From: Bifidobacteriaceae bacterium | Lineage (GTDB): Bacteria > Actinomycetota > Actinomycetes > Actinomycetales > WQXJ01 | Length of the DNA stretch: 64,000 bases | Reading direction: 5' to 3' | NCBI GenBank assembly: GCA_031281585.1 | Contig: JAITFE010000086.1 | Coordinates: forward strand, 1 to 64,000 | Shown here: positions 27,139 to 46,685 of the stretch, piece by piece | Numbering within the stretch: the stretch's first letter is position 1 | How the letters are laid out: the number at the start of each line of letters is the position of its first letter | Made by a program: the position numbers and the translations under genes | The notes under the pieces: generated by a model | What the model was told of the DNA's origin: nothing | Seen by the model: the letters and a program-made list of their open reading frames with translations, nothing else | The model's database searches: none

Positions 27139-27830
27139 GACGACACGGCCAGTCGCCCGCCAAAATGGTCCGGGGCGACGGCACCCGAGTTCTGAGTGCA
27201 ACGCCCGGATGGCGCCACGTCGTGCCTGAGCCCCTTGCCGCGAGACCCCGACAGCCTCCTGGCCGAGGACGTATCGTTCACCAGAGTCGACATCCAACTC
27301 AGCGAAACGCCTCAACGTCCGGCGGCGGGTCTTCACGAGTTCGAGACCGCTCTCATGAACGCGATCTTCCACATCAGCATGAACCTAGGGAAGCGTCACC
27401 GTGGAACCAGGCGGATGGTCTGTGCCACCGTCACACGAGACGGTCGTCGATGGTCACGACGTCAGGGGATCAGCGAAGACCAAAGTCCAGCGATCAGCCT
27501 GGGACGACCGCATCAGGCTCGAGGCCGACCGCGTGGACGATACGGGCGAGCGGTCTCCGTGGGCGAAGGCGACGGTCATTCCCACTGGGTGCCGCGCGTC
27601 GTCGTCCCGCTCCATCGTTCGGACTCTCCGACGCCGTGAAGCTAGTCATCAACGTAGCCTCCCACTGGGGCTGCGAACCATTCGAACTCGCGCTGACGTT
27701 CCGTGACAACTCATCCAGACTGAGATCGAACACCCCCTGACGCAGCTCACCGGTCTCTTATATCCCCTTGTCACCACCTGTTCGGACACACTTCTGGCTT
27801 CTCGAGGTTGATCCCGCTCACCTTGCCGAT
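27139..27830. other. Gap of about 690 bp without a supportable gene
   Basis: Between the merR promoter and the relaxase gene. Several open frames of 80-150 codons exist on both strands, but none has a recognisable domain, a convincing ribosome site or normal composition. It probably contains the left boundary of the mobile-element block. No direct repeat, tRNA end or integrase was found here. Confidence 0.5.
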
Positions 27831-27843
27831 GGAGGAGGCCAAG

Positions 27844-30800
27844 GTGACGGTTTCGATGCGGTTGATGACCGCCGGGGAAGGCTACAAGTATCTGCTCAAG
27901 AGCGTCGTCGCCGGGGATGGCGAGCGTCATCTTTCGACGCCTTTGACGCGGTACTACACCGAGCAGGGATGCCCGCCCGGCTCGTGGATCGGGTCGGGGC
28001 TTCGCTCGCTCGGCGAGCGGATGATCGAACCCGGCGACGAGGTCACCGAGGCTCAGCTTCAACTGCTCATCGGCCAGGGCATCCACCCGGTGACTGGTGA
28101 GACGCTCGGCCAGGCGTACTACAAGTTCCAGACCCGCGAGCGGCGCATCGCCAACCGCGTCGACCGGCTCCCCGAAACACTCACCGACGCTGAGCGCGCA
28201 GCCCAGGTCGAACTGATCGAGACCGAGGAACGCGAGCGGGGCGAGCGGCGCACGGTCGCCGGGTTCGACTACACGTTCAGCGTCCCGAAGAGCGTCAGCG
28301 TCTTGTGGGGCGTCAGCGACGCCGGGACGCAGGCACTCATCGCCCAGGCCCATCATGACAGCGTCGCCGACGTGATCGACTTCATGGAGCGCGAGGTCGT
28401 CTGCACCCGTTCGGGCATCTCAGGGCGTGGCGCCGGCGTCGTCCAAGTCGACGTGACCGGGGTGCTGGCGACCGCGTTCGACCACTACGACTCCCGCGCT
28501 GGCGATCCTCAACTCCACACGCACTGTGTGATCAGCAACAAGGTCGCCTCTGTCTTCGACGGCAGGTGGCGGTCGGTCGACTCCCGTCCGATGCACGCCG
28601 CCGTGGTCACGTTGAGCGAGCACTACAACGCGGTCTTGGCCGACCGGCTCGCCCGCGTCCTCGGCGTCGGCTGGGACCAGCGCGACCGGGGCCGGAACCA
28701 CAACCCGGCCTGGGAGATCGAGGGCGTCGGCGAAGACTTGATCAAGGAGTTTTCCTCCAGGTCCGGCGACATCGACGCGGAGGCCGCCCGCAGGGTGGCC
28801 GAGTACCGGGCCTCGCATGGCCGCCAGCCGTCGAGGCGGATGATCATCAAACTGCGGGAGCAGGCCGCGCTGGCCACCCGCCCCGACAAGCAGATCAGAT
28901 CGCTGGCCGACCTGACCGCCGAATGGCGGCAGAGGGCTGCCGCCCTGATCGGCGGGGACGCCACCGAATGGGCGCGGCAGGTCGTCGAGGACGGCGAGGC
29001 GGTGGTCCTGCGGGCCGACGACGTCCCGCTCGACGTGGTCGCACACCTCGGCGAGTCGGTCGTGCAGGTCGTCGGTGAGAAGCGGTCGACGTGGCGGCGG
29101 TGGAACCTCCACGCGGAGGCGTCTCGGCAGACGATGGGCTGGCGGTTCGCCACGGCCCAGGACCGGGAGGCGGTGGTAGCGCTGATCGTGGACGCCGCCG
29201 AAGACCGGTCGCTGCGGCTCACCCCAGCCGAACTGTCCGCGCCCGCCGAGTTCCAACGCCCGGACGGGTCGAGCCGGTTCCGGCCCAAGCACATGACCCT
29301 CTACTCCTCGCAGGCACTGCTCGACGCCGAGGACCGCCTGCTCGACCTGGGCCGCACGCTCACCGCGCCGACCGTGGCGCCGGACACGGTCGCCGGCCTG
29401 GTGGACACCCCGGACGGGCGGGGCCGTCTGCTCGGCCCGGACCAGGCGGCGGCGCTCACCTCGATAGCTACGTCGGGCCGGGTCGTGGATGTGCTGGTCG
29501 GCCCCGCCGGGGCGGGCAAGACGACAGCCCTGTCACGGCTGCGGGCCGCGTGGGAGGCCGAGCACGGCGGCGGCTCCGTGGTCGGCCTAGCCCCGTCGGC
29601 GACCGCCGCCGCCGTGCTGGCCGAAGACCTCGGCATCGCCTGCGAGAACACCGCCCGCTGGCTCGCCGAACACGACCACCTCGGACGCGACTTCCAACCG
29701 GGGCAACTGGTCATCTGCGACGAGGCCAGCCTGGCAGGCACGTTCACCCTCGACCGGATCACCGCCCTGGCCGCCCAGGCCGGAGCGAAAGTGCTGCTGG
29801 TCGGCGACTACGCGCAACTGCAGGCCGTGGACGCGGGCGGCGCGTTCACCATGCTCGTCGCCGACCGGCACGACGCCCCCGAGCTGACCGACATCCACCG
29901 GTTCCGCTCCGAGTGGGAGAAACCAGCCTCCCTCGGTCTGCGCCACGGACGCGCCAACGTCATCGACGCCTACCTCCAGCACGGGCGCGTCACAGAAGGC
30001 GACCATGATGACGTCACCGAGGCCGCCTACCTCGCCTGGCGCGACGACGCCCGAGAAGGGCTCGCCGCGCTTCTGGTGGCCGACTCCCACGAGACTGTTC
30101 GTGAGATGAACCAGCGCGCCCGCCACGAGCGCATTCTCGCCGGACTGGTCGACCCCGACGAGCACGTCACGCTCCACGACGGCTCCCTGACATCAGCGGG
30201 CGACGTCGTGATCACCCGCCGCAACGACCGCCATCTTGTCGCCGGGAAGACCGGGTGGGTGAGGAACGGGGACCGCTGGACGGTCGTGAAGACCCACAGC
30301 GACGGGGCGGTCACCCTGCGCCGCGCAGGCAGGCTCAACCAGGCCACCGTGATCCTGCCCGCCGCCTACGCCGCCGAGCACCTCGACCTGGGTTACGCGG
30401 TGACCGCGCACCGCGCCCAAGGCGTCACCGTCGACCGCTGCCACACTGTCGTCACACCGTCCACGACCAGGGAGAACTTGTACGTGGCGATGACCCGTGG
30501 CCGCTACGCCAATCTCGCCTACGTCGCCGTCGACAAGCCCGACCAGACCCACGATCTGCCGCACCCGTCCGACAACCCAGACGCCGACGCCCGCGCCGTC
30601 CTGTGCGGAGTGCTGCGGAACTCCGGCGCGGAACTCTCGGCCCACCAGGCCATCGCCGCCGAAGCCGAGGAATGGGGCAACGCTACCCAGATCTGCGCCG
30701 AATACGAGACACTGCTGGCCGCAGCCGAACGCGACCGGTGGGCGGCCCTCGTGGCCGACTGCGGCCTCGACCAGACGCAGGTCGAGCAGGTGCTCGCCTC

Positions 30801-31383
30801 CGAGGCGTTCGGCGCGCTGTGCGCCGAACTGGGCCGCGCCGAGGCAAACGGCCTCGACCCCGACACGGCCCTCCCGAAATTGGTCGCCGCCCGATCCATG
30901 GCCGGGGCCAGCGACATCGCCTCCGTCCTCCACGAGCGCTTCACCCGCCACAGCGAGCACGCGCAGGCCGACCGGCGCCTCCGACCGCGGCCTCAGCAGT
31001 GGGTCTTTGGCCTCATCCGCAAGCCGACCGCGAGCATCTCGCCTGTGTTCACCCAGGCACTTGTCGAACGTGAGGCCGCTCTTCGAAACCGGGCTTCCGA
31101 GGTGGTACGGCGGGCAATTCAGACAGGCGAGGCTTGGGCGATGGGTCTTGGTTCCCAACCGACCGATCCGCTCGGCGCGCGGCGATGGGCGGAAACCGCC
31201 TTGGCCGTTGCCGCTTATCGCGACCGTTACCAGGTTGAAGGATCTGACGCGCTAGGGTCGCCGTCTACCGCCAGGCAGGCCGAGGACGCCGCGCGGGTTC
31301 GGGCGACGGCAGGTCGACACACCCCGCCTCCACGAACACCTCATGGGAATCCGGTCTCGACGATGGAGCAGCTGAGCCTCTGA
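27844..31383 (+). CDS. MobF-family conjugative relaxase-helicase (TrwC/TraA type)
   Basis: 1179 residues. The relaxase domain has the tyrosine pair Y37-Y38 (TRYYTEQG) and the metal triad H214, H225 and H227 in FDHYDSRAGDPQLHTH. A RecD-like helicase follows with Walker A GPAGAGKTT (553-561), Walker B ICDEAS (624-629) and a C-terminal YAVTAHRAQG motif. It nicks DNA at oriT and unwinds it for transfer. The GTG of VTVSMRLMTAG was chosen: GGAGGAGG stands 5 nt upstream and family members begin this way. No coupling protein or mating-channel gene is in the window. Confidence 0.92.
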   Translation: MTVSMRLMTAGEGYKYLLKSVVAGDGERHLSTPLTRYYTEQGCPPGSWIGSGLRSLGERMIEPGDEVTEAQLQLLIGQGIHPVTGETLGQAYYKFQTRERRIANRVDRLPETLTDAERAAQVELIETEERERGERRTVAGFDYTFSVPKSVSVLWGVSDAGTQALIAQAHHDSVADVIDFMEREVVCTRSGISGRGAGVVQVDVTGVLATAFDHYDSRAGDPQLHTHCVISNKVASVFDGRWRSVDSRPMHAAVVTLSEHYNAVLADRLARVLGVGWDQRDRGRNHNPAWEIEGVGEDLIKEFSSRSGDIDAEAARRVAEYRASHGRQPSRRMIIKLREQAALATRPDKQIRSLADLTAEWRQRAAALIGGDATEWARQVVEDGEAVVLRADDVPLDVVAHLGESVVQVVGEKRSTWRRWNLHAEASRQTMGWRFATAQDREAVVALIVDAAEDRSLRLTPAELSAPAEFQRPDGSSRFRPKHMTLYSSQALLDAEDRLLDLGRTLTAPTVAPDTVAGLVDTPDGRGRLLGPDQAAALTSIATSGRVVDVLVGPAGAGKTTALSRLRAAWEAEHGGGSVVGLAPSATAAAVLAEDLGIACENTARWLAEHDHLGRDFQPGQLVICDEASLAGTFTLDRITALAAQAGAKVLLVGDYAQLQAVDAGGAFTMLVADRHDAPELTDIHRFRSEWEKPASLGLRHGRANVIDAYLQHGRVTEGDHDDVTEAAYLAWRDDAREGLAALLVADSHETVREMNQRARHERILAGLVDPDEHVTLHDGSLTSAGDVVITRRNDRHLVAGKTGWVRNGDRWTVVKTHSDGAVTLRRAGRLNQATVILPAAYAAEHLDLGYAVTAHRAQGVTVDRCHTVVTPSTTRENLYVAMTRGRYANLAYVAVDKPDQTHDLPHPSDNPDADARAVLCGVLRNSGAELSAHQAIAAEAEEWGNATQICAEYETLLAAAERDRWAALVADCGLDQTQVEQVLASEAFGALCAELGRAEANGLDPDTALPKLVAARSMAGASDIASVLHERFTRHSEHAQADRRLRPRPQQWVFGLIRKPTASISPVFTQALVEREAALRNRASEVVRRAIQTGEAWAMGLGSQPTDPLGARRWAETALAVAAYRDRYQVEGSDALGSPSTARQAEDAARVRATAGRHTPPPRTPHGNPVSTMEQLSL

Positions 31384-32566: not shown

Positions 32567-33539
32567 CCATTTCGATGTGCTGCTCAAGGACACCGTCAAC
32601 CTCAGCCGAGCAAAGCTCGACCTGTTGCAGATCAGGGCCGACGCGGTCTCAAGCGCGCTGATGGCCGACACTGAGATCGGCGATCTCATCTCTGGCTTCA
32701 CCCCGCAGGGTTCCTGGGCTCACCGCACGATCATCAACCCCCAGAACGGCAAGGAGTTCGACGCCGACATCCTCCTTGACATGGACGAGGTCGACGGGTG
32801 GGAAGCCAAGGATTACATCGAGCAGGTCTACCGCGCGCTGGGCCGCCACGGCACATACTCGGCCATGCCGCACACGAGGAAGTGCCGTTGCGTGCGGTTA
32901 ACGTACGCCAACTCCATGCACATCGACATCGTCCCTCACCTCCATCTCGCCGACGGGCGCGAAGTCATCGTCAACCGGGACCTCAACGAGTGGGAGACGA
33001 CCAACCCGACAGGTTTCACTGATTGGATGAGGGCGAAGGACTCTGTCACCGACGGCAACCTGCGCAAAGTCATCCGTCTCGTCAAATACTTGAGGGATCA
33101 CAAGAATTCTTTCACTGGCACTCCATCGATCATCATCACTACCTTGCTCGGCGACCGGGTCGACGAGATCAGCAAATTGGTCCGGCCTGACTACTACGGG
33201 AACGTGCCCAAGGCGCTGCTCCACCTCATATCCGACCTCGATGCTTGGCTCCAGCAGCAGTGGACTAAGCCATCGGTGGCTGACCCCTCCAGTCCAGGCA
33301 CCACATTCGACCACCGCTGGGAAGACGCAAGCTACGAGTACTTCCGCAACCGGGTTCACGCGCACGCCGCCGAGATCGCGGCGGCTTACAGCGAGCCAGA
33401 CAAGGCCAAGAGCGTCGAGCTGTGGCAAGGCATCTTCGGGTCGGGGTTCGCCGCACCGGCAACGACGGGTGATGCCGCCGCGTTCGGAACTTCTCAGGGG
33501 GCGGCCTCCACGATTCGGAGGCCAGGCCGGGCTGGATGA
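32553..33539 (+). CDS. CBASS cyclic-oligonucleotide synthase (CD-NTase)
   Basis: 328 residues. The polymerase-beta-like active site is complete: GS at 53-54 (QGSWAHRT), D70 and D72 in EFDADIL and D125 in HIDIVPHL. It makes a cyclic di- or trinucleotide that activates CapV; which nucleotide cannot be told. GAGGGGGAAC precedes the ATG, and the gene overlaps capV by 14 bp. The C-terminus is a low-complexity tail ending in RPGRAG. A free terminal glycine is what Cap2 enzymes join to a target, so this tail fits Cap2 priming. Confidence 0.92.
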   Translation: MQLSDHFDVLLKDTVNLSRAKLDLLQIRADAVSSALMADTEIGDLISGFTPQGSWAHRTIINPQNGKEFDADILLDMDEVDGWEAKDYIEQVYRALGRHGTYSAMPHTRKCRCVRLTYANSMHIDIVPHLHLADGREVIVNRDLNEWETTNPTGFTDWMRAKDSVTDGNLRKVIRLVKYLRDHKNSFTGTPSIIITTLLGDRVDEISKLVRPDYYGNVPKALLHLISDLDAWLQQQWTKPSVADPSSPGTTFDHRWEDASYEYFRNRVHAHAAEIAAAYSEPDKAKSVELWQGIFGSGFAAPATTGDAAAFGTSQGAASTIRRPGRAG

Positions 33540-35308
33540 CCAAGAAGCGCGTGCGTCCCCGGTACTCACTGTGGCAGACAGAACTGCTGGCGCAACTGCG
33601 CCGCCGCGCAGACGAGCAGCCCGACATGTTGACGCTCGCAACCAACCCCAGACGTGAAGACAATAAAGCTGTCACTGTCGGCATCGCCTTGAACACGGGA
33701 AGCATCGCCGTCGTGCCCGGTGGGCTCCCACTCCAGGAGCGGGAGGAGTTCTTACTCTGTCTACCCGAATCGCCCCGACTCCCTCCAGGGGTCTTCGTCC
33801 AGCACGACCGCTTCCTCGGCTTCCCGCACGTAATGCTCGGGCGTGTGCTGTGCGTCTACCTCGACCCATACCGGGAATGGGACCCAGCGGGCGGCGCGAC
33901 GGCGCTCCTCAACCGCCTCTACCAGTGGCTGGCAGACGCCGCCGGGGCACAGTTCGACGCCGCAACCGCGCTTTACCACGCGGTAGGAGGCGTTCTGCAC
34001 AGGACGGAGGGAACACCCACCCTAGTGGTGCGAGACATCCCATCGAGGCTCGCCACCGCCAGACTGGCCCACCGCTCTCCGACAAGACTGGACGTTGTCT
34101 TCGGCCCCGAGGCTGCAGGCGACCGCGCCCCGCTGTTTTTCACCAGCCACCACCTGCCTCTCGGCGCTACCAACACCCTTGACCTGCTGCTGGCCGTTCT
34201 CGGGCACGAAGCCCAGGGCTTCCTGACGACGCTGAGTGCCAGCGCCGTTCGCAACCCCGAGGGAACGCCCCAGTACTACCTCCTGGCCATCCCCCACCCC
34301 GCCGGAGGACCACACCATCTCCTGGGCGGCAGACTGCCCCCGGCCACAGCAGACGCCCTCAGATCGTTCGGCAGGCGCCACGGGCCAGCCGCCATCCAAC
34401 CGTCGATGATCCGCCAAGACACCAAGATCGAGTGGTGCAACATGTCAGACGAACGAGCAGAGAACACGACCCGGCGGGACGCCACCCGACCCGTCAACGG
34501 ACTACTCGACAAGACCGCCTACATCTGGGGATGTGGCGGTCTCGGCTCATGGATGGCAGAGTTCATGGTCCGAGCAGGCATCTCGAAGATCACACTGTGC
34601 GACCCCGGCACCATCATCGGCGGTCTGCTAGTCCGCCAGAACTACACTGAGGCCGACATCGGCAAAGACAAGGCAACGGCCCTCGCTGACAGGCTGCGCG
34701 CTCTGAGCGACGCCGTCGACGTGACGGTCGACAGCGGCATGGGGCCGGCCAACGTTGCCGACATGCTGGCCGCAGACATCATCGTGGACGCCACCGTAAG
34801 CCTGTCCGTGCAGCGCGATCTTGACGCGCTCGCTTCCAGCCCGGACAGGAGGGCCGTCATCGCCCAAGTGGCCACAGACGCACGGTCAGCCACTCTGGGC
34901 ATCCTTCACGTCAGCGCTCCGGGAAACGGCGGCACGCTGACGAGTCTGGATGAGAGCGCTGGCGCCGCCGTCATGGCCGACGGATCGCTGGAGTTGTACC
35001 ACTGCCTCTGGAACTCGGACCATGCCGACGAACTGACCCCAACACGAGGATGCTCGGCCCCGACCTTCCACGGCTCGGCGGCAGACGTGGCAGTCGTGGC
35101 CGGAACACTGACATCGCTGATCGGCTCGCATCTTCGAGGCACGGCAGTGTCCGGAACTCACCTGGTGGCCTCACCCACAGCGGCCGCAGGCCCACGACAC
35201 CACTTCTTGCCTCACGACAGCAGCGACCAACGACAAAGTGGCCTGCCGCGAAGCGGCAGGCCACTCGCCGGGGAGCGAGCTACTGCCGGTCAGCCCTCCG
35301 GCTCTTGA
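33536..35308 (+). CDS. cap2: CBASS E2-E1 ubiquitin-like transferase Cap2
   Basis: 590 residues. The N-terminal E2-like domain has its active cysteine at C106 (GRVLCVYLDP). The C-terminal E1-like domain has the adenylation loop WGCGGLGSW (331-339), the Asp-containing LCDPGTI, and catalytic C506 in TRGCSAPTFHGSAAD. Cap2 conjugates the C-terminus of the CD-NTase to a cellular target and so primes it. The ATG overlaps the CD-NTase stop (ATGA). Residues from about 565 on are read through the terminator of the convergent gene, so the true or ancestral end may differ. No Cap3 peptidase gene follows. Confidence 0.9.
   Translation: MTKKRVRPRYSLWQTELLAQLRRRADEQPDMLTLATNPRREDNKAVTVGIALNTGSIAVVPGGLPLQEREEFLLCLPESPRLPPGVFVQHDRFLGFPHVMLGRVLCVYLDPYREWDPAGGATALLNRLYQWLADAAGAQFDAATALYHAVGGVLHRTEGTPTLVVRDIPSRLATARLAHRSPTRLDVVFGPEAAGDRAPLFFTSHHLPLGATNTLDLLLAVLGHEAQGFLTTLSASAVRNPEGTPQYYLLAIPHPAGGPHHLLGGRLPPATADALRSFGRRHGPAAIQPSMIRQDTKIEWCNMSDERAENTTRRDATRPVNGLLDKTAYIWGCGGLGSWMAEFMVRAGISKITLCDPGTIIGGLLVRQNYTEADIGKDKATALADRLRALSDAVDVTVDSGMGPANVADMLAADIIVDATVSLSVQRDLDALASSPDRRAVIAQVATDARSATLGILHVSAPGNGGTLTSLDESAGAAVMADGSLELYHCLWNSDHADELTPTRGCSAPTFHGSAADVAVVAGTLTSLIGSHLRGTAVSGTHLVASPTAAAGPRHHFLPHDSSDQRQSGLPRSGRPLAGERATAGQPSGS
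35238..35264 (-). terminator. Rho-independent terminator of the LPMTG protein gene, inside cap2
   Basis: On the minus strand GTGGCCTGCCGC pairs perfectly with GCGGCAGGCCAC over a 3-nt loop and is followed by TTTGT. It begins 16 nt after the stop of the convergent surface-protein gene and lies inside the last codons of cap2. Confidence 0.85.
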
Positions 35309-38300
35309 GCTTCGCGCCTACCAACAGAGCCGCGCCGAGCACCAAGGCGACGCTTCCGATTGCGATCCAGGGGCCGGTGTTCGCGCCGGTCATAGGGAGC
35401 GCCTTCCCGCCGGTCTCGGCAGACGGGCCGGGTTTGGGCGGCTGGTGCCACATGGTCCGCTCGCTGACCGTCCCGAAACGGCCCTGGGCGAGGACTGCCC
35501 GGTCGGGACTGTCACTGTCGGGCGACCAGGCGATCTCCTTGATCCAGGTGCAACCTTCCTGGTCGGAGGTGAACTCCGGCGACAGGAACTTGGCCGTCTC
35601 CCCGGCGCCCAGCTCTTTGTCGAGTTCGGTGGCGCCGATCTTGACCGTGCCGTCCATTTCGTCTGGGTCCGGCGCCTCGCATCTCAACTCGTCTTGGGCC
35701 GCGCCGGGGTTGATGTAATCGGTGCGCTGGTACCAGAACTCGACCTGGGTTCCCTTCGGGAACGGGCCGGTGAGTAGGGCTTCATCGGTGATCGTGTCCC
35801 CGACCTGGGCGTGCTCGGGGGCCGTGGTCGTGATCTGCGGCTCGGCTTCCTCCGGTGGTGGCGGCAGCAGGATGGCGGTCTCGTTGACGAGGCCGCATGC
35901 CCCACGCCGGATCACCTTTCCGTCGGCGTCGGCGACGGTCTCGACCAGGGACAGCAGGCCGGGCTTGTCGGGCATGGTGAACTCGGGCGAGGCGTAGACG
36001 CCCTCCCCGCTGATCGGCGCGAGCCGGCCGCTGCTGGCGAGCAGTGTTTCCGGGGTGCATCGCGCGCCTTGGTAGGCCGCCTCTCCGGACGGTTGGGCCA
36101 CGATGCCGGGCGCCTGCCCGTCGTCGAACGGCTGCCAGTAGACGTCCCAGACGACTGTCCACCCGGTGGTGTCGGCGGGTCGCCCGTCGGTGGGGTACCA
36201 GGCGTGGAGCAGGTCAGTGATCTTGGTCCCGGCTTCGACCTGGAGGGCTTCGGTGCGCGCCTGGGCAGTGGCGACGCTGGCTCCCTTGCGTGTGGCTTCG
36301 GTGACGGTCTGGGTGATGAACTGGGGCTGTTCGTGGACCAGGGTGATGGTCTCCGATTTCTCTCCGCAGACCGACCGGTACGGTTCGGTGCGGGCGTCGC
36401 CGGGGTAGGACACGACGAACGTGTATGTGGCGTCGCCGCCCTCGGCTTTGAACTTGGAGCCGGACACCATCTGGCGGGCGGCCCAGGTGTTCCACGCCGG
36501 GGTCTTTTCGTTGACCGCGATCAGCCTGGCCGCTGGGTTGTCGACGGTGCAGGACTCCGGTGTGACGTCGCCTTCGATCCGCCACAGTTCGACGGTGACG
36601 GTCTTCGCGTCGGCCTCCCAGGGGCCGTAGCCGCCCCAGGCGGTGTGGCCGACCGCGCCGTGCAGATCAGAGTCTTCGGGGCCGTCGGGCCAGTCGGTCT
36701 GCCAGACCTCGTCGGTGAAAAACACCTCCTCGGTGCCGTCGTTGGTGGCCGACCATTGGCTGGCCGACGTGTGGACGACCGGGGTGCGGCGGATGATGAC
36801 AGTCTCCTCGGGCAGCCACAGCGGCGTCGTGGCGTCCTTGGCCAGGTAGTCCTTGGTCGCCTCGGGCTGCCGGTCTCGTTTGATGTCGTAGACGAACCCG
36901 TAGGCCCCATACTCGCCGTAGTCGACGGTGTGGCAGACGGTCTGGGCGTGGTCTTGGCCGGCGGCGGTGAAGGTGAGCTGGTACTCGTCGACGACTGGGA
37001 TGCCGGGGTCGATGCTGGTGGTCTGGGCGGCGGGCACCGCCGAGTGGTACAGCTTCCCGTCCGCGAGCACTTCGACCGGCCTGTCGGTGCCCCACTGGTT
37101 GAGCCACAAGTCGCCGGGGCTGGTGTGCTCGACCCACACGCTGTCGCAGACCTCGACGGCGCCGTCGCCCTTCGGCTCGGCCACGGTCTCGTGTTCGGTC
37201 TGGGACTTGATGACCAGGTCCATCTGGGTGACGTGGGTTTCGCCTGGTTGGCCGAACTTGTCGGACGGGTCGTTGTCGAACAGGACTTTCACGTCGTCGG
37301 CCTGTTGGCTGCGGTCGATCCGCCACACCCAGGTGCCGTACTGCGAGGTGGGGACGGTGAACCCGGCTGGGGCGTCCACGGTGACCGGGTCGCGTCCCGT
37401 GGTGGGCAGGGTCACGTCGACCGTGGCGGTGCCGAGCGGTTTCGCGTCTGCCGGTGGCTGGTCGGCGATGACGAACGAGGACGCCGATCCGGCGTAGTAC
37501 GTGCCGGCCGCTTTGACGACGGCGGGGTTCCCGTCAGTCTTGCTGATCCACTGGTCTGTCGGGTTGGGCAGAGACACTGTGATCGTGTCGTCGGGGGCTT
37601 GGCCTTTGGCCCGGTATTGGTCGGGCAGAGCGGAGGAGACGGCGAGGGTCATGGGGATGGTGTACCGCTCGGTCGCTGCGAAGTAGTCGTCGCAGGTGGC
37701 CGCGCCCTTGGGCAGGTATTTCGCGTTGCCGCCCTGGTAGGCCGGGTCGAGGCACCAGCGCATCGCGTAGTGCCCGGAACCCGTGTCGGGCAGGGTCGTG
37801 GTCACGGTGGCCCACACGTCCGGGCCGGTCAGCGTGACCAGGGTCGGCTCAGCAGACACCACCACAGCCCCGGCGGGCAGCGTCTTCGACGCCGCGGGCG
37901 GCGTGGACGCCTTGACGACCTGGCCGGAGGCGACCTGCGGATGGTAGGTCTTCGGTTTGGTCTGGATCGCGTCGGCCCATTCCTTGACCGGCCACTGGGT
38001 GCCGTCGACAGCGGTGGCCTTGACCTTGTCCTGCACCGTCGTGGCGTTCCGGTCGAGGACCTTGGTCGGGGTCTCGGTGGTGATCTTGGGCTGCCATTTC
38101 GTCTGGGTGGCTTTCCCTGTGACCTTCGCCTCCAGGGACTGTGTCAGGCCGGTGACGATCCGTTGGGTCGACCCCTGCTGGTAGAACAGGTAGCACGGCT
38201 GCGGCACCCCGGCCACGGTCATGGTCACAGTGACCGCCTCGTCGGCGATCAGCGTGTGCCGGGGGACGATCCGGGCGGACTGGACGCCGGCGCCGGTGGT

Positions 38301-38951
38301 CGCGGTCATGGTGGTTCCGCCGCCGTCGAACGTCGCGTTCGGCGTCGTGATCGTCAGCGTGGTCTTGAACCCGTCGGCGTAGTGGGCGGCGGCCCGGTCT
38401 GTCTCTCCCTGCCGGACCAGGCCGTACCAGACGGTCAGGTTGTCCGCGTCGACTTGGAGCAGGGCTTGGCGTTGCCCGCCGTTTCGTTTCGCCTCGGCCG
38501 CCAACCGGTCGTGGACGCCCCGGTAGGTGACGGGGATGGAGTCGTGGTACTCGGCGCGGATGAACTGCGACACCGACACGGAGACGGCGTCGTCTGTGGA
38601 CTTGTCGTACATGGCGGCCAGGTAGGCGATCTGGGCGGTCTTGTCGGGCGCGCCGCCCGCGGTCTGGCCGCAGATTTTGGTGGCGTGGGCGGGGTCGAGG
38701 GTGTCCGGCGGGGTCGTGCCGGGGTCGGCGCACCAGCCATACTGGCCCTGGATCAGGATGTTGCCCCAGTGCGTCGACGCGCCCTTGTAGGTGCCCCACT
38801 CGCCGCTCGGATACTCAGCCGCCAGAGCGGGCGTGGCACCGCCCACCGCCGACAGCGCGCTCACGCCCAGGGCGATGGCGGCCAGGACGGCCTTCTTGAA
38901 TCTGGATGCCCTGCCCCCGTGACGGGCGCGGGCGGTCTGCTTGCGAACCAC
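35280..38951 (-). CDS. Large LPXTG-anchored surface protein
   Basis: 1223 residues: signal peptide (1-44, ending ALA-A), a long extracellular part rich in beta-strand, Thr and Val, then LPMTG at 1185-1189, a hydrophobic helix and a basic tail, the standard sortase signal. The ectodomain has several repeated Ig-like stretches with Trp and Cys pairs (e.g. GWCADPG, VCDSVWVEH, SVCGEKS), suggesting stacked adhesin domains. I recognise no enzyme domain. GTG start with AAAGGA 9 nt before. Surface proteins of this kind on conjugative elements of Gram-positive bacteria often promote mating contact (inference). Confidence 0.85.
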   Translation of the reverse strand: MVRKQTARARHGGRASRFKKAVLAAIALGVSALSAVGGATPALAAEYPSGEWGTYKGASTHWGNILIQGQYGWCADPGTTPPDTLDPAHATKICGQTAGGAPDKTAQIAYLAAMYDKSTDDAVSVSVSQFIRAEYHDSIPVTYRGVHDRLAAEAKRNGGQRQALLQVDADNLTVWYGLVRQGETDRAAAHYADGFKTTLTITTPNATFDGGGTTMTATTGAGVQSARIVPRHTLIADEAVTVTMTVAGVPQPCYLFYQQGSTQRIVTGLTQSLEAKVTGKATQTKWQPKITTETPTKVLDRNATTVQDKVKATAVDGTQWPVKEWADAIQTKPKTYHPQVASGQVVKASTPPAASKTLPAGAVVVSAEPTLVTLTGPDVWATVTTTLPDTGSGHYAMRWCLDPAYQGGNAKYLPKGAATCDDYFAATERYTIPMTLAVSSALPDQYRAKGQAPDDTITVSLPNPTDQWISKTDGNPAVVKAAGTYYAGSASSFVIADQPPADAKPLGTATVDVTLPTTGRDPVTVDAPAGFTVPTSQYGTWVWRIDRSQQADDVKVLFDNDPSDKFGQPGETHVTQMDLVIKSQTEHETVAEPKGDGAVEVCDSVWVEHTSPGDLWLNQWGTDRPVEVLADGKLYHSAVPAAQTTSIDPGIPVVDEYQLTFTAAGQDHAQTVCHTVDYGEYGAYGFVYDIKRDRQPEATKDYLAKDATTPLWLPEETVIIRRTPVVHTSASQWSATNDGTEEVFFTDEVWQTDWPDGPEDSDLHGAVGHTAWGGYGPWEADAKTVTVELWRIEGDVTPESCTVDNPAARLIAVNEKTPAWNTWAARQMVSGSKFKAEGGDATYTFVVSYPGDARTEPYRSVCGEKSETITLVHEQPQFITQTVTEATRKGASVATAQARTEALQVEAGTKITDLLHAWYPTDGRPADTTGWTVVWDVYWQPFDDGQAPGIVAQPSGEAAYQGARCTPETLLASSGRLAPISGEGVYASPEFTMPDKPGLLSLVETVADADGKVIRRGACGLVNETAILLPPPPEEAEPQITTTAPEHAQVGDTITDEALLTGPFPKGTQVEFWYQRTDYINPGAAQDELRCEAPDPDEMDGTVKIGATELDKELGAGETAKFLSPEFTSDQEGCTWIKEIAWSPDSDSPDRAVLAQGRFGTVSERTMWHQPPKPGPSAETGGKALPMTGANTGPWIAIGSVALVLGAALLVGAKLKSRRADRQ

Positions 38952-39081: not shown

Positions 39082-40122
39082 CTACAGTCGTTCCTGTTCG
39101 GCGGTCTCCATGAACCGGGTGGCCTGGTCGATGTAGTCGACGAGGAACCGCCACTGCTCGTTGTCGGCGTGCTGGCCGAACACCTTCGGGTCGTGGCGGT
39201 TCCACCAGCCGTTTTCCCGGCGCAGCGCCACGACGAGCGCGCGGGCGGACTGCTTCTCCCTGGCGTGCGGGTCACGCGGCGGGGGAGGCGGTTTCGGCTG
39301 GCTTCCCCTGGTTTCGCCGACGGTCTTGAGCGCCCGCTTGGCGGCCTTCAACCTCGCCTTCGGGGATTCCTCGGCCTCGACCGCATCTAACTGCTGGACG
39401 GCGGCGTCACGGACATCTTGCGGTTCTGTCGGGCTGTCGGCGGTGGTGGCGAGTTCGGTGAGGGCCTGGTGGAGTTTGACGCGTTCCCAGCGGGCGGCGA
39501 CGTGGCCGTCCTCGTTCAGTTCGACCAGCGCGTCGATGGCGTCCTGTTGCACGAACGGGTCGGCTGTGTCGTCGCGGGCGATGGCCTGGAGTTCGCGGAT
39601 GCGTTCCAGGCGCTGATGTGAGTCGGTGCCGGTCACTTTGACGGCGGCTTTCGTGCGGGACTTCGACGCCGACGGGGTCTTCCCTGCCGGGGGTGGTGAA
39701 TCACCACCCCCGTCCGCCCCGGCCGGGGCGGCAGTGTTGCCGAACTGGGTGGCCTGGTGGCGGGCTTGCGCTTGTGCCGCGTAGACCGCCTCCCACGCCG
39801 CGTAGGCTTCGGCCTGCTCGATGGGCGTCCAGGATTTCCGCAGCGTCTCGTCGTCCCACATGGCCAGGGTGCGGGCCTGATCGTCGGTGATGTTGGTCGC
39901 GACCCAGCACGGCACGGTCTCCCAGCCGAGCTGCGTGACGGCCTGGACGCGGCGGCGACCGCACAGCAGTTGCCCGGCCTTAGTGACGACGACCGGGGAT
40001 AGCAGTCCGAGGCGTTGGATCGAGTCAGCGAGGGCGTCGATGTCGCCCAACTCCTGCCGGAAGACGCCCTTGACGCTGATGTCGTTGAGTGGTTTGGCGT
40101 CCACCAGGTGGCCGTCGTCCAT
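39082..40122 (-). CDS. ParB/Srx-domain protein of the mobile element
   Basis: 346 residues. The N-terminal ParB-like domain (about 10-110) shows ALADSIQRLGLLSPVVV and LLCGRRRVQAVTQLGW, the nucleotide/DNA-binding box of ParB-Srx proteins. The middle and C-terminus are charged and Ala-rich and probably helical, without a clear second helix-turn-helix. No parA neighbour exists, so a partition role is not certain; regulation or transfer is also possible. AAAGGC stands just before the ATG. It lies between the repeat protein and the surface protein on the same strand. Confidence 0.75.
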   Translation of the reverse strand: MDDGHLVDAKPLNDISVKGVFRQELGDIDALADSIQRLGLLSPVVVTKAGQLLCGRRRVQAVTQLGWETVPCWVATNITDDQARTLAMWDDETLRKSWTPIEQAEAYAAWEAVYAAQAQARHQATQFGNTAAPAGADGGGDSPPPAGKTPSASKSRTKAAVKVTGTDSHQRLERIRELQAIARDDTADPFVQQDAIDALVELNEDGHVAARWERVKLHQALTELATTADSPTEPQDVRDAAVQQLDAVEAEESPKARLKAAKRALKTVGETRGSQPKPPPPPRDPHAREKQSARALVVALRRENGWWNRHDPKVFGQHADNEQWRFLVDYIDQATRFMETAEQERL

Positions 40123-40236: not shown

Positions 40237-43200
40237 TCACAGACTCATACCTCGCGCGGGACGGTTGGGCGGCTGGCCCAACCAGTCCGGTCTGGACGGC
40301 CCGACGGGTGGTGTGCCGAGGCTGAACCGGGTGGCGGGTTGGACGCTGGTCGGGGCGGGGCGTCGGCCGGCGGCCTTGTTTCCGACGGCTTTGGCTCTCA
40401 GCTTGGCCAGGTCGTCCAGTGTTGCCTGGTCAGCCCGGTCTTTGGGGTCGACGGCTGCGGCCCAGCCTGGCCCACCGGCTTGGGCGGCGGTGCCGACGAC
40501 GAGCCGGTAGCGGCGTTCGCCTGCCGTGTCGGTCGCGTCGTACACGCCCGGCGGCAGGCACCGGTGCGCATCGCGTGACAGGCCCGAGTACTGGTGGCCA
40601 GCAGGGCCGGGCACGATCACAGCCCGGTCGCCCAGCCTGCGCACGATCCGGGAGACCTGGTGGCGGGCGTCCCGGTCGAGCCATGTCTCGCCCAACGTCT
40701 GCCCGGTCTGGCCGGGCACGATCAGTTGCCGCAGCGCGTCGACGCAGGCTTTCTCCAATCCGCCCGGCGGCTGGGGCGGGTAGGACGGCGCCGCGGCCAG
40801 CGACTCGCGGAGCAGGCGGGCCAGTTGCGCGTCGCGGCGTCGGGCGGCTTTGGGCAGGTCGGCCCGCCATTGGTCCCGGTCCCACCGGTAGGCCATGTCG
40901 TCGAACTCGCCGTCGTAGGACGGGCGGGTCGCCCGGTAGTCGGCGATGTCGGGCTCTTTCGGCAGCGGCTCCCCGGCCAGCATGACCGCGACCTTGCGTT
41001 GGAACGTCTCCAACGCCTCGTGCCGTTCCAGCAGATCGGCCACGTTCGCGGCGTTCATGGCCAGGTCGAGGCAGTGTTCCATCCAGTCCTCGACCGCTGC
41101 GTCCCACAGATGCCCATGAAGGGCGCCGTCCAGGTCCGGCCAGTCCTCCGGCTGGGGCATCTTGGGGAACGCCTCGGCCAGCATCTCCGGGATGCCCGAG
41201 TCCAACAAAGGCCCCCACACCCGCTCGGCGTCCCGCCCGTGCTCGGCCATCAGCTTGTCCCGGCCGGCCTGGCCGCCCACAGTCGGCTGGGCCGTGGGCG
41301 TGGGAGATGGCGGCTCGGCTGGGTTGAGTGGCGAGCCGGTCTGGGATTCGACGATGTGAACGGCGGGGACCGCCAGGTTCTTGCCGAGCAGCCGCAGCCA
41401 TTCGCGGGCCTCGTCGGGGGTCTTCGGCTCCGGGTAGGCGTCGAGGAACTGTTGTACTCCCTCGCAGCTGTGGGGGTCGTCCTCCAGTTCGGCGTGGATG
41501 CGGGAGGCGATCAGCAAGTCCAACTGGTCGCGCGTGTCGGCCAGGAACACCTGCGGAGCCGCCCGTGTGCCCCCGTTCCAGGCCACTGCCGCCACCAGCG
41601 GACGCTTGCCCTCGGCTGGCGCGGCAGGGTCCTGGTTCGGCGCGGGCGATGGGTCGGACTGGACGGCCTGGCCGGTCGGGACGGGCGGCGCGGCGGCGGG
41701 TGTTGGTTGTCCGGTGGCGGTCTTGAGGATGGGGTGGCAGTCGAACTGTGGGCTGGGCATGACCTCGCGCAGGCCGTCGAGCCATTTCTCGACGCCGTCC
41801 GGGTGCAGGCCGGCCGGGTCGCCGTGTTGTTCCAGGTAGCGGGCAGCCTGGTCGGAGGCCGGGTCGTCCAATTCCTTCTCGTACAGGCGGGCCGCGATCC
41901 GGCGGGCGACCGCGTCGTGCTCGCGGTCGATGAAGACCTCCATCTCGGTCGGGGTGAGGCTGTTCTCGTCGTCCCAGACGATCACCCCCGCTGACAGCGC
42001 GTTCGCGTCAACTGTCGGACTGGGCGCGGGTTCGGCGCGGCGCAGGCCGAGGGAGGCCTCGAAGTCAGGCGGGCCGACCTGGTCGAGGACGGCCTGGTTG
42101 ACGGCCTGCCGGGTCAGCGAGGTGAACACTCCCATGTCGATGTCGGCCACCCGGATCTCGGGCAGCGCCGTGGCCTGCTGGTAGCCGTCCAGCCACCTCG
42201 TGACACCCTGGGCGTCCATGCCGGTCGGGTCGCCCAAGGCGTCGAACAGGTCGCCGACGTCGAACGCCGGGCTGTCGTGCATCTCCTCCCACAGCCGTGT
42301 GGCCACGCTGCTCTCGACTGCCGCGCGATCCACCCCGACGATGATCTCTGGCGGCACGCCGCCGTCCAAGTCCCACCAGATCACACCGACCGTGACCGTT
42401 CCATCCGTCTCGGGTGCGGTGGCCGCGGCCTCCGGGCCGCTGTCGACCGTCGTCCGGGCGGTCATGGTCTCGGTGGCTGAGGCGGGCGGCAGCGGCGGCA
42501 GCCACTCCTGGCCGATGTCGAACCCTTGGTCACGCAGGACCCATCGGTGGGCCCGCAGCCAGGCTGTGACGGCGGCCGGACCGGGCAGCTTCTCCGGGTT
42601 GCCGTGCTCCTCGGCGAACTGTCGCTGCTCGGGCGTCTGGAACGGCCCGTCGAGCCGCTCGTGAAGGAGCACGGCGATCCGCCGCTCCAGGGCTTCGCGG
42701 TTGGCTTCGGCGAGCAGGCGCGCGTTCCACACCGACCCGGTCTGCGCGACAGCCGCCAGGAACAGCCTTTCCGGGTTTGCCGGATCGGCCTGCTCGACCG
42801 TGACCTCCTCCAGGGCGAACGCGGGGCCGGGACGCTCGGTTTCGACGGCCAGGAGCCAGTCCGACACGTCGCAATCGCCCGACCATTCGGCGGGGCGGGT
42901 GTGACGCTCGGTGAACGTGGACGTGCGCTCGAACCCAGAGTCGGACACCATCGCCTCGTGCAGTCGGGCGGCCACCTTCCGGGCCACTTCCGGTTCGCTG
43001 CGCCCGACGACGAACTCCGCGGCGAAGTCGTCGTCGGGGTCCCGAAAAATCGCCCCGACCCACGCCGTGGTCGCCACCGTCTCCTGAACGGCGGGCCGTT
43101 CGCTGGAAGCCTCGGTCCCTGCGGACTCGCTGGCCAGAGTGGGCGCGGGCGACCTCTGGGCGAACGCCGAGTCGGGATCGACGGTGGCGTGGTGGGTGGT

Positions 43201-43791
43201 GAACACCGGGAACGGCAGTTCCCGGCTCGCGGCGATCAGCCATCGCGACACCGCGTTGGGGTCGCCCAAGTCGGGCTGGCCGTGGACGTCGAGGAACGCG
43301 TCGTAGCCCGCGTTCGTGTCAGCCCCGATGATGCGCTGTTGGATCGTCTCGGCGAGTTCGCGTTCGACCAGGTTCGGGTCGAGACCGCCGATCACCTGGG
43401 TCTCGTCCCACACGTCCTCGCCCCACCGGATCACCGCCACCGTCACATCGTGGGCCGTCTCGGCGTCGGCCTGGACCAACACCGTGTCTCGGTGGAACGC
43501 CGGTCCAGGGACATCCATCGCCAGTGCCTCCAGCCAATGCTCCACGTCAGCCGGTTCGTGCCACTGGTGCGGCTTGGGGCTACGGTCGATGAACGCCCGC
43601 GCCTCGTCGTAGCCGGGGCTGTCCGCGATGGTGTTGAACAAGACCGTGGCCACCTCCTTGTCCAGGCGGTCTCCGTCCCAGTCGGCCATGACCTGCGGGT
43701 ACTCGCTCGTGTGGTCGGGACGCCAGAACACCGCCCCCACCGCCAGGTCACGCCAGCCAGGCGTCGTGGCCGGGGTTGTTGGTTCGCTCAT
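40237..43791 (-). CDS. 1184-residue protein with seven tandem copies of an unnamed domain
   Basis: No family recognised. Seven copies of a domain of about 85-90 residues lie at roughly 17-106, 116-204, 244-333, 345-430, 466-553, 599-687 and 731-815, joined by Pro/Ala/Thr-rich linkers. Each copy opens with a strand such as GAVFWR, AVIRW or GVIVWDD, continues with a helix of the type VARRIAARLYE, then a short xxHGxP turn and a VxxWL helix, and ends with P-x-F and a beta-strand. Residues from about 830 to 1184 are a different, Arg/Trp-rich region with no match I know. No signal peptide or membrane segment. Acidic, probably cytoplasmic and element-specific. Confidence 0.85.
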   Translation of the reverse strand: MSEPTTPATTPGWRDLAVGAVFWRPDHTSEYPQVMADWDGDRLDKEVATVLFNTIADSPGYDEARAFIDRSPKPHQWHEPADVEHWLEALAMDVPGPAFHRDTVLVQADAETAHDVTVAVIRWGEDVWDETQVIGGLDPNLVERELAETIQQRIIGADTNAGYDAFLDVHGQPDLGDPNAVSRWLIAASRELPFPVFTTHHATVDPDSAFAQRSPAPTLASESAGTEASSERPAVQETVATTAWVGAIFRDPDDDFAAEFVVGRSEPEVARKVAARLHEAMVSDSGFERTSTFTERHTRPAEWSGDCDVSDWLLAVETERPGPAFALEEVTVEQADPANPERLFLAAVAQTGSVWNARLLAEANREALERRIAVLLHERLDGPFQTPEQRQFAEEHGNPEKLPGPAAVTAWLRAHRWVLRDQGFDIGQEWLPPLPPASATETMTARTTVDSGPEAAATAPETDGTVTVGVIWWDLDGGVPPEIIVGVDRAAVESSVATRLWEEMHDSPAFDVGDLFDALGDPTGMDAQGVTRWLDGYQQATALPEIRVADIDMGVFTSLTRQAVNQAVLDQVGPPDFEASLGLRRAEPAPSPTVDANALSAGVIVWDDENSLTPTEMEVFIDREHDAVARRIAARLYEKELDDPASDQAARYLEQHGDPAGLHPDGVEKWLDGLREVMPSPQFDCHPILKTATGQPTPAAAPPVPTGQAVQSDPSPAPNQDPAAPAEGKRPLVAAVAWNGGTRAAPQVFLADTRDQLDLLIASRIHAELEDDPHSCEGVQQFLDAYPEPKTPDEAREWLRLLGKNLAVPAVHIVESQTGSPLNPAEPPSPTPTAQPTVGGQAGRDKLMAEHGRDAERVWGPLLDSGIPEMLAEAFPKMPQPEDWPDLDGALHGHLWDAAVEDWMEHCLDLAMNAANVADLLERHEALETFQRKVAVMLAGEPLPKEPDIADYRATRPSYDGEFDDMAYRWDRDQWRADLPKAARRRDAQLARLLRESLAAAPSYPPQPPGGLEKACVDALRQLIVPGQTGQTLGETWLDRDARHQVSRIVRRLGDRAVIVPGPAGHQYSGLSRDAHRCLPPGVYDATDTAGERRYRLVVGTAAQAGGPGWAAAVDPKDRADQATLDDLAKLRAKAVGNKAAGRRPAPTSVQPATRFSLGTPPVGPSRPDWLGQPPNRPARGMSL

Positions 43792-43906: not shown

Positions 43907-44962
43907 TCAAGTCGCCGCCGCCAGCCGGTCCACGCGCGCCCGGATCAGCGGCACGAACGACGCGTCCTTCTCCACCGCCACGACCCGCCGCCCCAGCGAC
44001 AACGCCGCCTCGACCGTCGAGCCCGATCCCGCGAACGGCTCCAGCACCACGCCGCCCGGCTTCGTGAGCAAGCCGACCAGCCACCGCATCAAGCTCAACG
44101 GCTTCACCGTCAAATGGGACACCCCGTCCACCTTTGGCCGTTCCGACTGGCCCGGCTTGCCCTCATACCGGAACACCGGGAACCCGACCGCCGCACCCTC
44201 GCAGCGGGCCTCCAGCGCCCGGCCCTGCCGCTCGTCCATCGCCACGTTGACCGGCCACCTGCCGCCGCCGAACCTCCCGGCATCGACGTTGATGCCGCCC
44301 GTGCCGTGGTCCAGCACGTTCGCCACCACGGTCCCGGCCAGGGGTTTGCGGGCGATCAGGATCGGCTCGAAACCCGGTTTCAGCCCCGTGCCCCACCCGG
44401 CCATCCGCCTGGCCTCATCTGTGACGGGGTCGCCTTTTGACAGCACCCGCCGGGTCATGCCCAGCACGCCGTCGGAGTTCGACACCTCCACCTCGCGATC
44501 CTCGCGCACCGCGCCGAGGTGGGTGTCGATGGCGTTGGAGATGTCCATCGACTTCGGCATCCCGGTCGCATACAGCCAGGCGATCTGGTCGCGCACCTCG
44601 AACCCGGCGGCCTCGACACCAGCAGCCAGCCGGTGCCACGTCCGCGCCCCGCCGAACGCCGCCATGTGCCCACCCGGCCTCAACGCCGACAAGGCACCAA
44701 TGGCCCACGCCCGGCACCACGCCTCGAACACCTCCCCGTCGGGCATCCCCGCCGTGTCGAAGTCCAAGGATTCCCGGAACCCCCTTGCCCCGTCCCAGTC
44801 CTGGTCGCTGAACTGCAGCCCGTACGGAGGATCGGTCACCACCGCGTCCACGCTGTCCCGCGCCAGAAGCGGCAGGACGCGGACAGCGTCGCCGACGACC
44901 AGCATCAGCCGGTCAGTGTCGACGGCAGTCGGTACGGAAGCGGCGATGGGAACGACAGACAC
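43907..44962 (-). CDS. Orphan DNA methyltransferase (DPPY, N4/N6 type)
   Basis: 351 residues. The catalytic motif DPPYGLQF comes near the N-terminus and the S-adenosylmethionine motif FAGSGST near the C-terminus, the beta-class order. It methylates adenine N6 or cytosine N4. The target-recognition part is the middle region (about 100-270). No restriction gene is adjacent; the HNH protein 1 kb away is of another type, so this looks like an orphan enzyme guarding the element against host restriction. The GTG before SVVPIAA was chosen because GGGAGG stands 6 nt upstream. Confidence 0.9.
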   Translation of the reverse strand: MSVVPIAASVPTAVDTDRLMLVVGDAVRVLPLLARDSVDAVVTDPPYGLQFSDQDWDGARGFRESLDFDTAGMPDGEVFEAWCRAWAIGALSALRPGGHMAAFGGARTWHRLAAGVEAAGFEVRDQIAWLYATGMPKSMDISNAIDTHLGAVREDREVEVSNSDGVLGMTRRVLSKGDPVTDEARRMAGWGTGLKPGFEPILIARKPLAGTVVANVLDHGTGGINVDAGRFGGGRWPVNVAMDERQGRALEARCEGAAVGFPVFRYEGKPGQSERPKVDGVSHLTVKPLSLMRWLVGLLTKPGGVVLEPFAGSGSTVEAALSLGRRVVAVEKDASFVPLIRARVDRLAAAT

Positions 44963-44993
44963 AGGCGGCCTCCCGGTGGCGGTGAACAAAGCA

Positions 44994-46049: not shown

Positions 46050-46685
46050 CTACCCTGACTCCAGCACCGCCCGCATCGTGGCCCGCTCCGAGTCGGTCAC
46101 CGCCAGCCGGTACCGAGCCTTCACGCCGACCTGAAGCAGCACGAACCGCACCCGGTAATCGTGCAGCGTGTTGCTCGGCAGCCACTTGTCGGCAGCGCGG
46201 TCGCCCTTCGACGTGTTGGCGCTGACCGACACCGCCAACAGGTTGGCCGGGTCGTTGCAGAACCGCTGCCAGTTCCTGCCCTTCGGGCTCCACCGGTACC
46301 CGCCAGCGTTCCACGCGTCGGCCACGGCGACGACGTGGTCTATGTGGACCCGGTAATCCTTCTTGTCCTCGACCTGGACGAACTCCACCTCGACACCAGA
46401 GTACGGGCACTCCCGCAGCCTGGCGTGCCGCAGGGTGAACCCGTCGGCGTCGTAGACCTTGTCAACCAGGTCACGGGCCAAAATGTAGTCCTTCATGTCG
46501 AGCCCGACTTGGGCGAACTTCGGCATGGACACGACCAACTGCCGCCGGTACGGGACCGAAGGCTTCCAACCGTCCGGGTAACTCTTCAACCCCTCCAGGC
46601 GGGCGAGTCCTTCGGTTCGCTCGGCCTTGTCGGATCGGGGCGAGAACGTGGTCGTCATCGCGGCCAGCCAATCGGAAGACTCCAT
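46050..46685 (-). CDS. HNH endonuclease family protein (DUF1524/GmrSD-like)
   Basis: 211 residues. HIDHVVAVADAW carries the catalytic His, and FCNDPANLLAVSVSANTSKGDRAADKWLP is the conserved Asn-Ser-Lys segment of DUF1524 HNH proteins, broken here only by its length. The N-terminal 90 residues contain a region with CPYSGVEVEF. No signal peptide, in contrast to many secreted actinobacterial DUF1524 nucleases. It may be a standalone nuclease or a defence-related enzyme of the element. The ribosome site is weak; an ATG ten codons downstream is possible. Confidence 0.82.
   Translation of the reverse strand: MESSDWLAAMTTTFSPRSDKAERTEGLARLEGLKSYPDGWKPSVPYRRQLVVSMPKFAQVGLDMKDYILARDLVDKVYDADGFTLRHARLRECPYSGVEVEFVQVEDKKDYRVHIDHVVAVADAWNAGGYRWSPKGRNWQRFCNDPANLLAVSVSANTSKGDRAADKWLPSNTLHDYRVRFVLLQVGVKARYRLAVTDSERATMRAVLESG

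Follow-up and report, generated by a model that had tools for sequence, protein, structure and literature searches.

A Seven-Repeat Protein of an Actinobacterial Conjugation Module and a C-Terminal Tail Common to Unrelated Proteins of Related Elements

Related conjugative elements of actinobacteria were found to encode unrelated proteins that, as judged from their sequences, end in a common C-terminal tail, and this is the new observation reported here. The analysis concerned P0001, which is encoded in a stretch of 64,000 nucleotides of a Bifidobacteriaceae contig (JAITFE010000086.1, positions 1 to 64,000; hereafter, the window) and which consists of seven copies of one domain, the bead, and a C-terminal region (CTD). 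The architecture, relatives and neighbourhood of P0001 and the tail shared by its relatives were established, and we infer that this tail may serve docking at, or delivery by, the T4SS coupling protein (T4CP). The co-transfer of proteins during conjugation has so far been shown mostly for Gram-negative plasmids. A tail carried by unrelated proteins, SSB among them, provides a sequence-based, testable list of candidate transferred proteins for Gram-positive conjugative elements, and this list takes in two unnamed protein families, including the seven-bead P0001.

Repeat Architecture of P0001

The P0001 gene starts with ATG, and its GC contents of 0.74/0.51/0.88 at the three codon positions are typical of a coding gene (Table 1). 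As the original prediction had claimed, it encodes seven tandem copies of one domain. Each copy was recovered by a profile built from the remaining six with E-values of 1.8e-20 to 2.8e-11 (leave-one-out; best E-value among 199 shuffles per copy, 0.0019), and all seven matched the bead-family profile A7 at E 3.5e-22 or better. The copies, each of about 90 amino acids, shared 14–31% pairwise identity (mean 23%), and a search for a DNA-level tandem repeat in the gene found none remaining. Thus, recent slippage was excluded and the prediction of an old, diverged repeat was confirmed. Copies 1 and 2 as well as copies 3 and 4 are separated by 8 residues, and the other units by linkers of 32–44 residues that are mostly Pro/Ala/Thr-rich.

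Table 1. Positions in the window of P0001, its parts and neighbouring genes of the element.
Feature	Position	Strand	Remarks
MobF (TrwC) relaxase-helicase	27808..31383	+	relaxase of the element; ends in ...STMEQLSL
ParB-family gene	39082..40122	-	directly downstream of P0001; conserved neighbour, anchor for relatives
P0001, seven-repeat protein, 1184 aa	40237..43791	-	whole gene including stop
Disordered tail (aa 1139-1184), ...RFSLGTPPVG...ARGMSL	40240..40377	-	pLDDT <50; candidate docking/translocation signal
Small beta domain (about aa 1043-1138), PGVYDATD...RYRLVVG	40378..40665	-	predicted with moderate model confidence
Helical part of the C-terminal region (aa 839-1000)	40792..41277	-	model; long helices, pLDDT mostly 75-95
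Repeat 7 (aa 731-817)	41341..41601	-	profile leave-one-out
Repeat 6 (aa 599-688)	41728..41997	-	profile leave-one-out; modelled, pLDDT 91
Repeat 5 (aa 466-554)	42130..42396	-	profile leave-one-out
Repeat 4 (aa 343-433)	42493..42765	-	8 aa from repeat 3
Repeat 3 (aa 243-334)	42790..43065	-	preceded by 35-aa linker
Repeat 2 (aa 116-207)	43171..43446	-	8 aa from repeat 1
Repeat 1 (aa 17-107)	43471..43743	-	profile leave-one-out
N6/N4-type DNA methyltransferase	43907..44989	-	directly upstream of P0001; conserved neighbour

The common plan described earlier for the copies held in part. A WL and VxxWL-like motif was present in all seven copies and a Trp within the first 12 residues in six of them; the literal HGxP occurred in three copies and P-x-F in four. 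In an alignment of 24 domains, Ala39 alone was invariant and Pro66 and Trp78 were nearly so (alignment columns), with no polar residue conserved throughout. This lack of a conserved polar residue suggests that the beads are binding modules rather than enzymes.

Structure prediction of a single copy was run for repeat 6, which was folded from the alignment of 24 sequences from the window and its relatives. A confident model (pLDDT 91, pTM 0.83) with the order beta-beta-alpha-alpha-alpha-beta was obtained. This model represents copy 6 alone, and the homology of the seven segments is based on the sequence profiles. Searches of Pfam, NCBIfam, PHROGs and PADLOC yielded no family above the curated cut-off for P0001 or its relatives, a PDB sequence search with the bead and CTD profiles gave nothing below E 0.2, and Foldseek found no clear PDB match for the bead model (best E 0.18). 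Structural comparison of the bead reached a best Z of 4.5 with unrelated folds tied, and the best match in a viral structure library was an uncharacterised Stenotrophomonas phage protein (E 0.038, TM 0.57). This lack of a structural match is no proof of a new fold. A possible resemblance to small actinobacterial 'HRHG' proteins entered none of the conclusions.

The model of the CTD (aa 839-1184) was weak, with a mean pLDDT of 63. It predicted long helices, a small beta domain and disorder of the last ~65 residues, and a fold search returned generic helix matches only.

Relatives and Genetic Neighbourhood

The P0001 gene adjoins the methyltransferase and ParB genes of a conjugation module, the neighbourhood that marks the bead family. 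With ParB as an anchor, 17 loci were obtained from the GTDB collection. Two of them were the same contigs as G004:C62 and G005:C60, from Bifidobacteriaceae MAGs of the window's genus, and the others belonged to Microbacterium, Leucobacter, Brachybacterium, Cellulomonas, Flaviflexus, Nesterenkonia and Aeromicrobium. Plasmid and phage records contained no relatives of P0001 or the single-domain protein, plasmid records none of the CTD protein, and no viral contigs were found for the ParB anchor. The bead domain was rare within the window's order (4 of 396 sampled genomes).

In most ParB-anchored loci, a one-bead gene directly precedes a CTD-homologous gene. This arrangement, with the single-bead gene directly 5' of the CTD gene, was seen in at least 12 elements of Microbacteriaceae, Cellulomonadaceae, Micrococcaceae, Nocardioidaceae and Actinomycetaceae. 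Gene order is conserved: methyltransferase, bead gene, CTD gene, prim-pol (PF09250), DUF2637, p144, preParB, ParB and T4SS genes. Among the T4SS genes are those of an M23 peptidase and a VirB4-like ATPase, and the genes for T4CP and SSB follow further downstream. These loci bear on several points of the original prediction. Single-domain relatives exist, and the conjugative elements that carry them belong to Microbacterium, Leucobacter, Cellulomonas, Nesterenkonia, Aeromicrobium and Flaviflexus. The C-terminal third is distinct, since its homologue, helical part included, stands as a gene of its own in other elements (E 8e-44 by profile). The proposed link with transfer or maintenance genes of the element was supported by the recurrence of methyltransferase, repeat, CTD and ParB genes in several actinobacterial families.

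Because one bead and a separate CTD gene are the common state, P0001 is most simply read, from these gene arrangements, as an apparent fusion of the bead and CTD genes in which the bead was amplified to seven. Intermediate states were present in elements of the same genus: in G004, a CTD homologue with one clear and one weak repeat is followed by a two-repeat protein and then ParB, and in G005 a two-repeat protein is followed by ParB. The repeat tree was poorly supported and left most window copies unresolved, so the order of fusion and amplification is not proven.

Other bead genes varied as well. Three bead proteins (L029:3547-5169, L032:3718-5154 and L030:2449-3609) also contain the CTD beta domain, which by their sequences is domain shuffling between neighbouring element genes. 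Decayed copies were seen at L023:4598-4872, where the bead gene is split over two frames, and in the CTD gene of L021 (about 5238-6584), which is interrupted by a TAG stop.

Further genes accompany P0001 in the window. Directly after the MobF relaxase gene, a CBASS operon (31469-35308, plus strand) encodes a patatin-like effector, a SMODS CD-NTase and an E1-E2 fusion. This operon, which is apparently cargo of the element, accounts for the defence genes near P0001 and is separate from P0001. It is followed by the gene of a 1223-aa surface protein with an LPxTG/LAXTG-like C-terminus (35280-38951, minus strand), whose N-terminal Cys and Gln pattern we take to be reminiscent of thioester adhesins. 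A homologous-looking large surface protein is encoded downstream of ParB in G004 (L015/L016) and G005 (L017). A GmrSD_C/HNH-like gene (PF07510) lies at 46050-46685 (minus strand), and a similar gene in G005 (L017:2460-3098) lies between ParB and the surface protein.

A C-Terminal Tail Common to Unrelated Element Proteins

The tail in the related elements follows one plan: a short helix-like piece, L..REqaLdPd, a disordered Pro/Gly/Ser-rich stretch and then GR...SR, GRSL or AVAR. Examples are ...RAREQALTGEPAEAPAPPPAAGRELGR (bead protein) and ...LADREGQLDPEPPTATSAASAQRDAVAR (SSB). The tail is common to the bead protein, the CTD homologue, SSB and the small proteins p144 and postParB, and is found less consistently in p170 and prim-pol. 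A first tail motif made of regular expressions was too loose, since it also matched DUF2637 proteins in 57%, and was replaced by tests with profiles from which one family at a time was left out. A score above the host 99th percentile was counted as a match.

The tails of the left-out family were recognised in 12/12 bead proteins, 11/13 CTD homologues, 12/13 p144, 9/9 postParB and 7/7 SSB proteins. Together, 51 of the 54 tails of these five strong families were recognised, compared with 1% of host proteins. The less consistent families reached 6/8 (p170) and 5/14 (prim-pol). In the controls, other element proteins matched in 0–4 of 138 cases and shuffles in 1–3%. A profile of four families, with SSB absent from training, picked SSB in all seven elements checked, with scores of 12.8–32.1 versus a maximum of 7.8 among 362 host proteins. 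Without their tails, representatives of the seven families showed no strong mutual similarity (best E 0.018), compared with E-values down to 3e-5 for the tails alone. When three SSB-like proteins were scanned with Pfam, two were confirmed as SSB; the identity of the T4CP was likewise confirmed.

The usual C-terminus of SSB is acidic, and the element SSBs do not end in this way. Those of Microbacteriaceae and related ICE loci (e.g., L134:938-1453 and L132:5548-6066) end in the shared tail. Near the relaxase of a Leucobacter zeae element, a 185-aa protein (L133:14691-15248) had a tail score of 19.9.

The Tail of P0001 and Its Element

The tail of P0001 did not match the Microbacteriaceae tail profile; its score of -3.8 lay below the host 99th percentile. 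P0001 ends in ...RFSLGTPPVG...ARGMSL, and the bead/CTD proteins of G004 and G005 end in ...PLDVFGRAP...GLGL, ...PLDAFGNRP...APSL and ...PLGVFGNQA...APGL. The p144 homologues of two T4SS-bearing elements of the same genome as P0001 end in ...PPVTAFGSTPPQSSAQAVGR and ...PPASAFGATPPPERARSGGAVAR. An [GSA]L ending was present in 9/14 candidates of the window's genus versus 7/248 host proteins and 0/17 other element proteins (Fisher p 1.4e-9, for a pattern chosen after inspection and with four mutually related relaxases among the candidates). Proteins with this ending include P0001, other repeat/CTD proteins, one of two SSBs and 4/4 MobF relaxases. Since the endings of the genus differ from the Microbacteriaceae tail and share [GSA]L, the sequences suggest that the tail tag differs by element lineage.

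Neither VirB4 nor T4CP was found on the 92.8-kb contig of the window (C86), and two related T4SS are encoded on contigs C75 and C104 of the same genome. Because VirB4 and T4CP are missing from the contig, the element of P0001 may be mobilised by a helper T4SS, or its T4SS may be missing through assembly gaps.

Proposed Role and Alternative Explanations

P0001 would be soluble and serve a MobF-relaxase conjugation module as an accessory protein, formed when two neighbouring genes for a single bead and the CTD fused and the bead was multiplied to seven on flexible linkers. Since unrelated soluble proteins of the transfer module, SSB foremost, share the tail, it could be bound by one common receptor. 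The T4CP is the likeliest candidate because SSB, ParB1 and PsiB are known to reach recipients through the F-plasmid T4SS (PMC8406263) and because the signal for translocation by a T4SS can lie at the C-terminus and be positively charged or hydrophobic (PMC11288057). The shared tail would then be a docking or translocation signal, by which tail-bearing proteins either dock at the transfer apparatus or accompany the DNA into the recipient, and the seven beads would allow multivalent binding of a partner. That P0001 is such a fused, amplified accessory with a tail read by the T4CP for docking or delivery has, in our view, an even chance of being right.

A more far-reaching version is that a portable tag, varying by lineage and read by the T4CP, sends an establishment kit of SSB, less certainly prim-pol, and several uncharacterised proteins to the recipient, with P0001 as its seven-bead cargo. 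We put it forward tentatively, as possible rather than probable. Several observations speak against the main reading of P0001 and the tail. First, the tail of P0001 was unmatched, and its own link to the tagged set is a short, lineage-specific ending picked post hoc. Second, MobF relaxases, which are certain T4SS substrates, seldom matched the tail profiles (0–2 of 18); the last residue is L, R or F in 94% of them and in 22% of host proteins. Third, ParB, which is translocated in the F system, is without the shared tail in these elements. Fourth, with neither T4CP nor VirB4 on its contig, the element would depend on a helper T4SS.

The tail could instead act in the donor only, by recruiting proteins to the coupling protein, the relaxosome or another hub, with P0001 as a multivalent donor scaffold that is not translocated. 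The evidence from the left-out-family profiles fits such docking equally, in several elements SSB directly follows the T4CP gene, and seven modules on flexible linkers would suit a scaffold. However, primases typically act on the recipient side in the conjugation systems that have been studied. SSB likewise is a recipient-side protein there (PMC8406263), and we consider action in the donor alone unlikely.

With still lower probability, P0001 could be a partition or maintenance factor that acts with the adjacent ParB on element DNA independently of transfer. In the window's genus, conservation extends to the downstream neighbour, ParB, and in other families the repeat and CTD genes precede ParB by a few genes. 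However, no ParA-like or DNA-binding family was found in P0001, and the tail groups its relatives with SSB rather than with ParB.

An anti-defence protein that shields incoming DNA, e.g., a mimic of DNA charge whose seven copies titrate a host enzyme, appears highly improbable. Most domains are indeed acidic (net charge about -0.10 per residue, mostly the 2nd–10th percentile of host 90-aa windows), and a methyltransferase is a conserved neighbour. However, this acidity is moderate, some copies and relatives lack it, and the structural matches of the bead to AcrIIC5 (Z 4.5, 4.7 Å over 75 residues) and AcrIIA15 (Z 4.0) were at noise level, tied with unrelated folds. Since PADLOC gave no match and the acidity is only moderate, a defence role has no direct support. 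Thus, among the roles in maintenance, transfer or defence that had been suggested from the position of the gene, transfer is best supported and maintenance is possible. Least probable of all, and barely credible, is that the tail is a degron or a site for a protease adaptor, which would limit the amounts of element proteins, and not a transfer signal: C-terminal tags are read by Clp-type proteases in bacteria and the tail is predicted to be disordered in the CTD model of P0001, but the tail is confined to soluble proteins of the transfer module, and an ending that seems to depend on lineage, relaxases included, is more readily explained by a receptor that the element encodes than by a protease of the host.

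Comparison with Known Systems

The closest counterparts of P0001 are found in actinobacterial ICEs of the T4SS type, e.g., in Leucobacter zeae (L026:4445-4975 and 5127-6509) and Microbacterium esteraromaticum (L022:4231-4929). They encode a homologous bead (E about 1e-20) and a homologous C-terminal region (E 8e-44 by profile) in the same order, after the methyltransferase and before ParB. In contrast to the single seven-bead protein of P0001, whose contig is without T4SS genes, the ICEs have two genes, usually one bead and another C-terminal tail motif.

The establishment proteins of F plasmids (PMC8406263, PMC11288057) are likewise element-encoded, soluble and encoded near transfer genes, and SSB belongs to the tagged set described here. 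For F plasmids translocation was measured, whereas in the actinobacterial elements the shared tail was seen in sequence alone. Moreover, F plasmids translocate ParB, which is untagged in the actinobacterial elements, and the bead domain is without an F counterpart.

The signals of Agrobacterium VirB/D4, Legionella RalF and Bartonella BID (PMC11288057, PMC8714903) differ from the actinobacterial tail in sequence, length and host group, and the likeness implies no homology. As in the actinobacterial elements, these signals are portable C-terminal segments common to unrelated proteins, and they are likewise partly positively charged or end in a hydrophobic residue.
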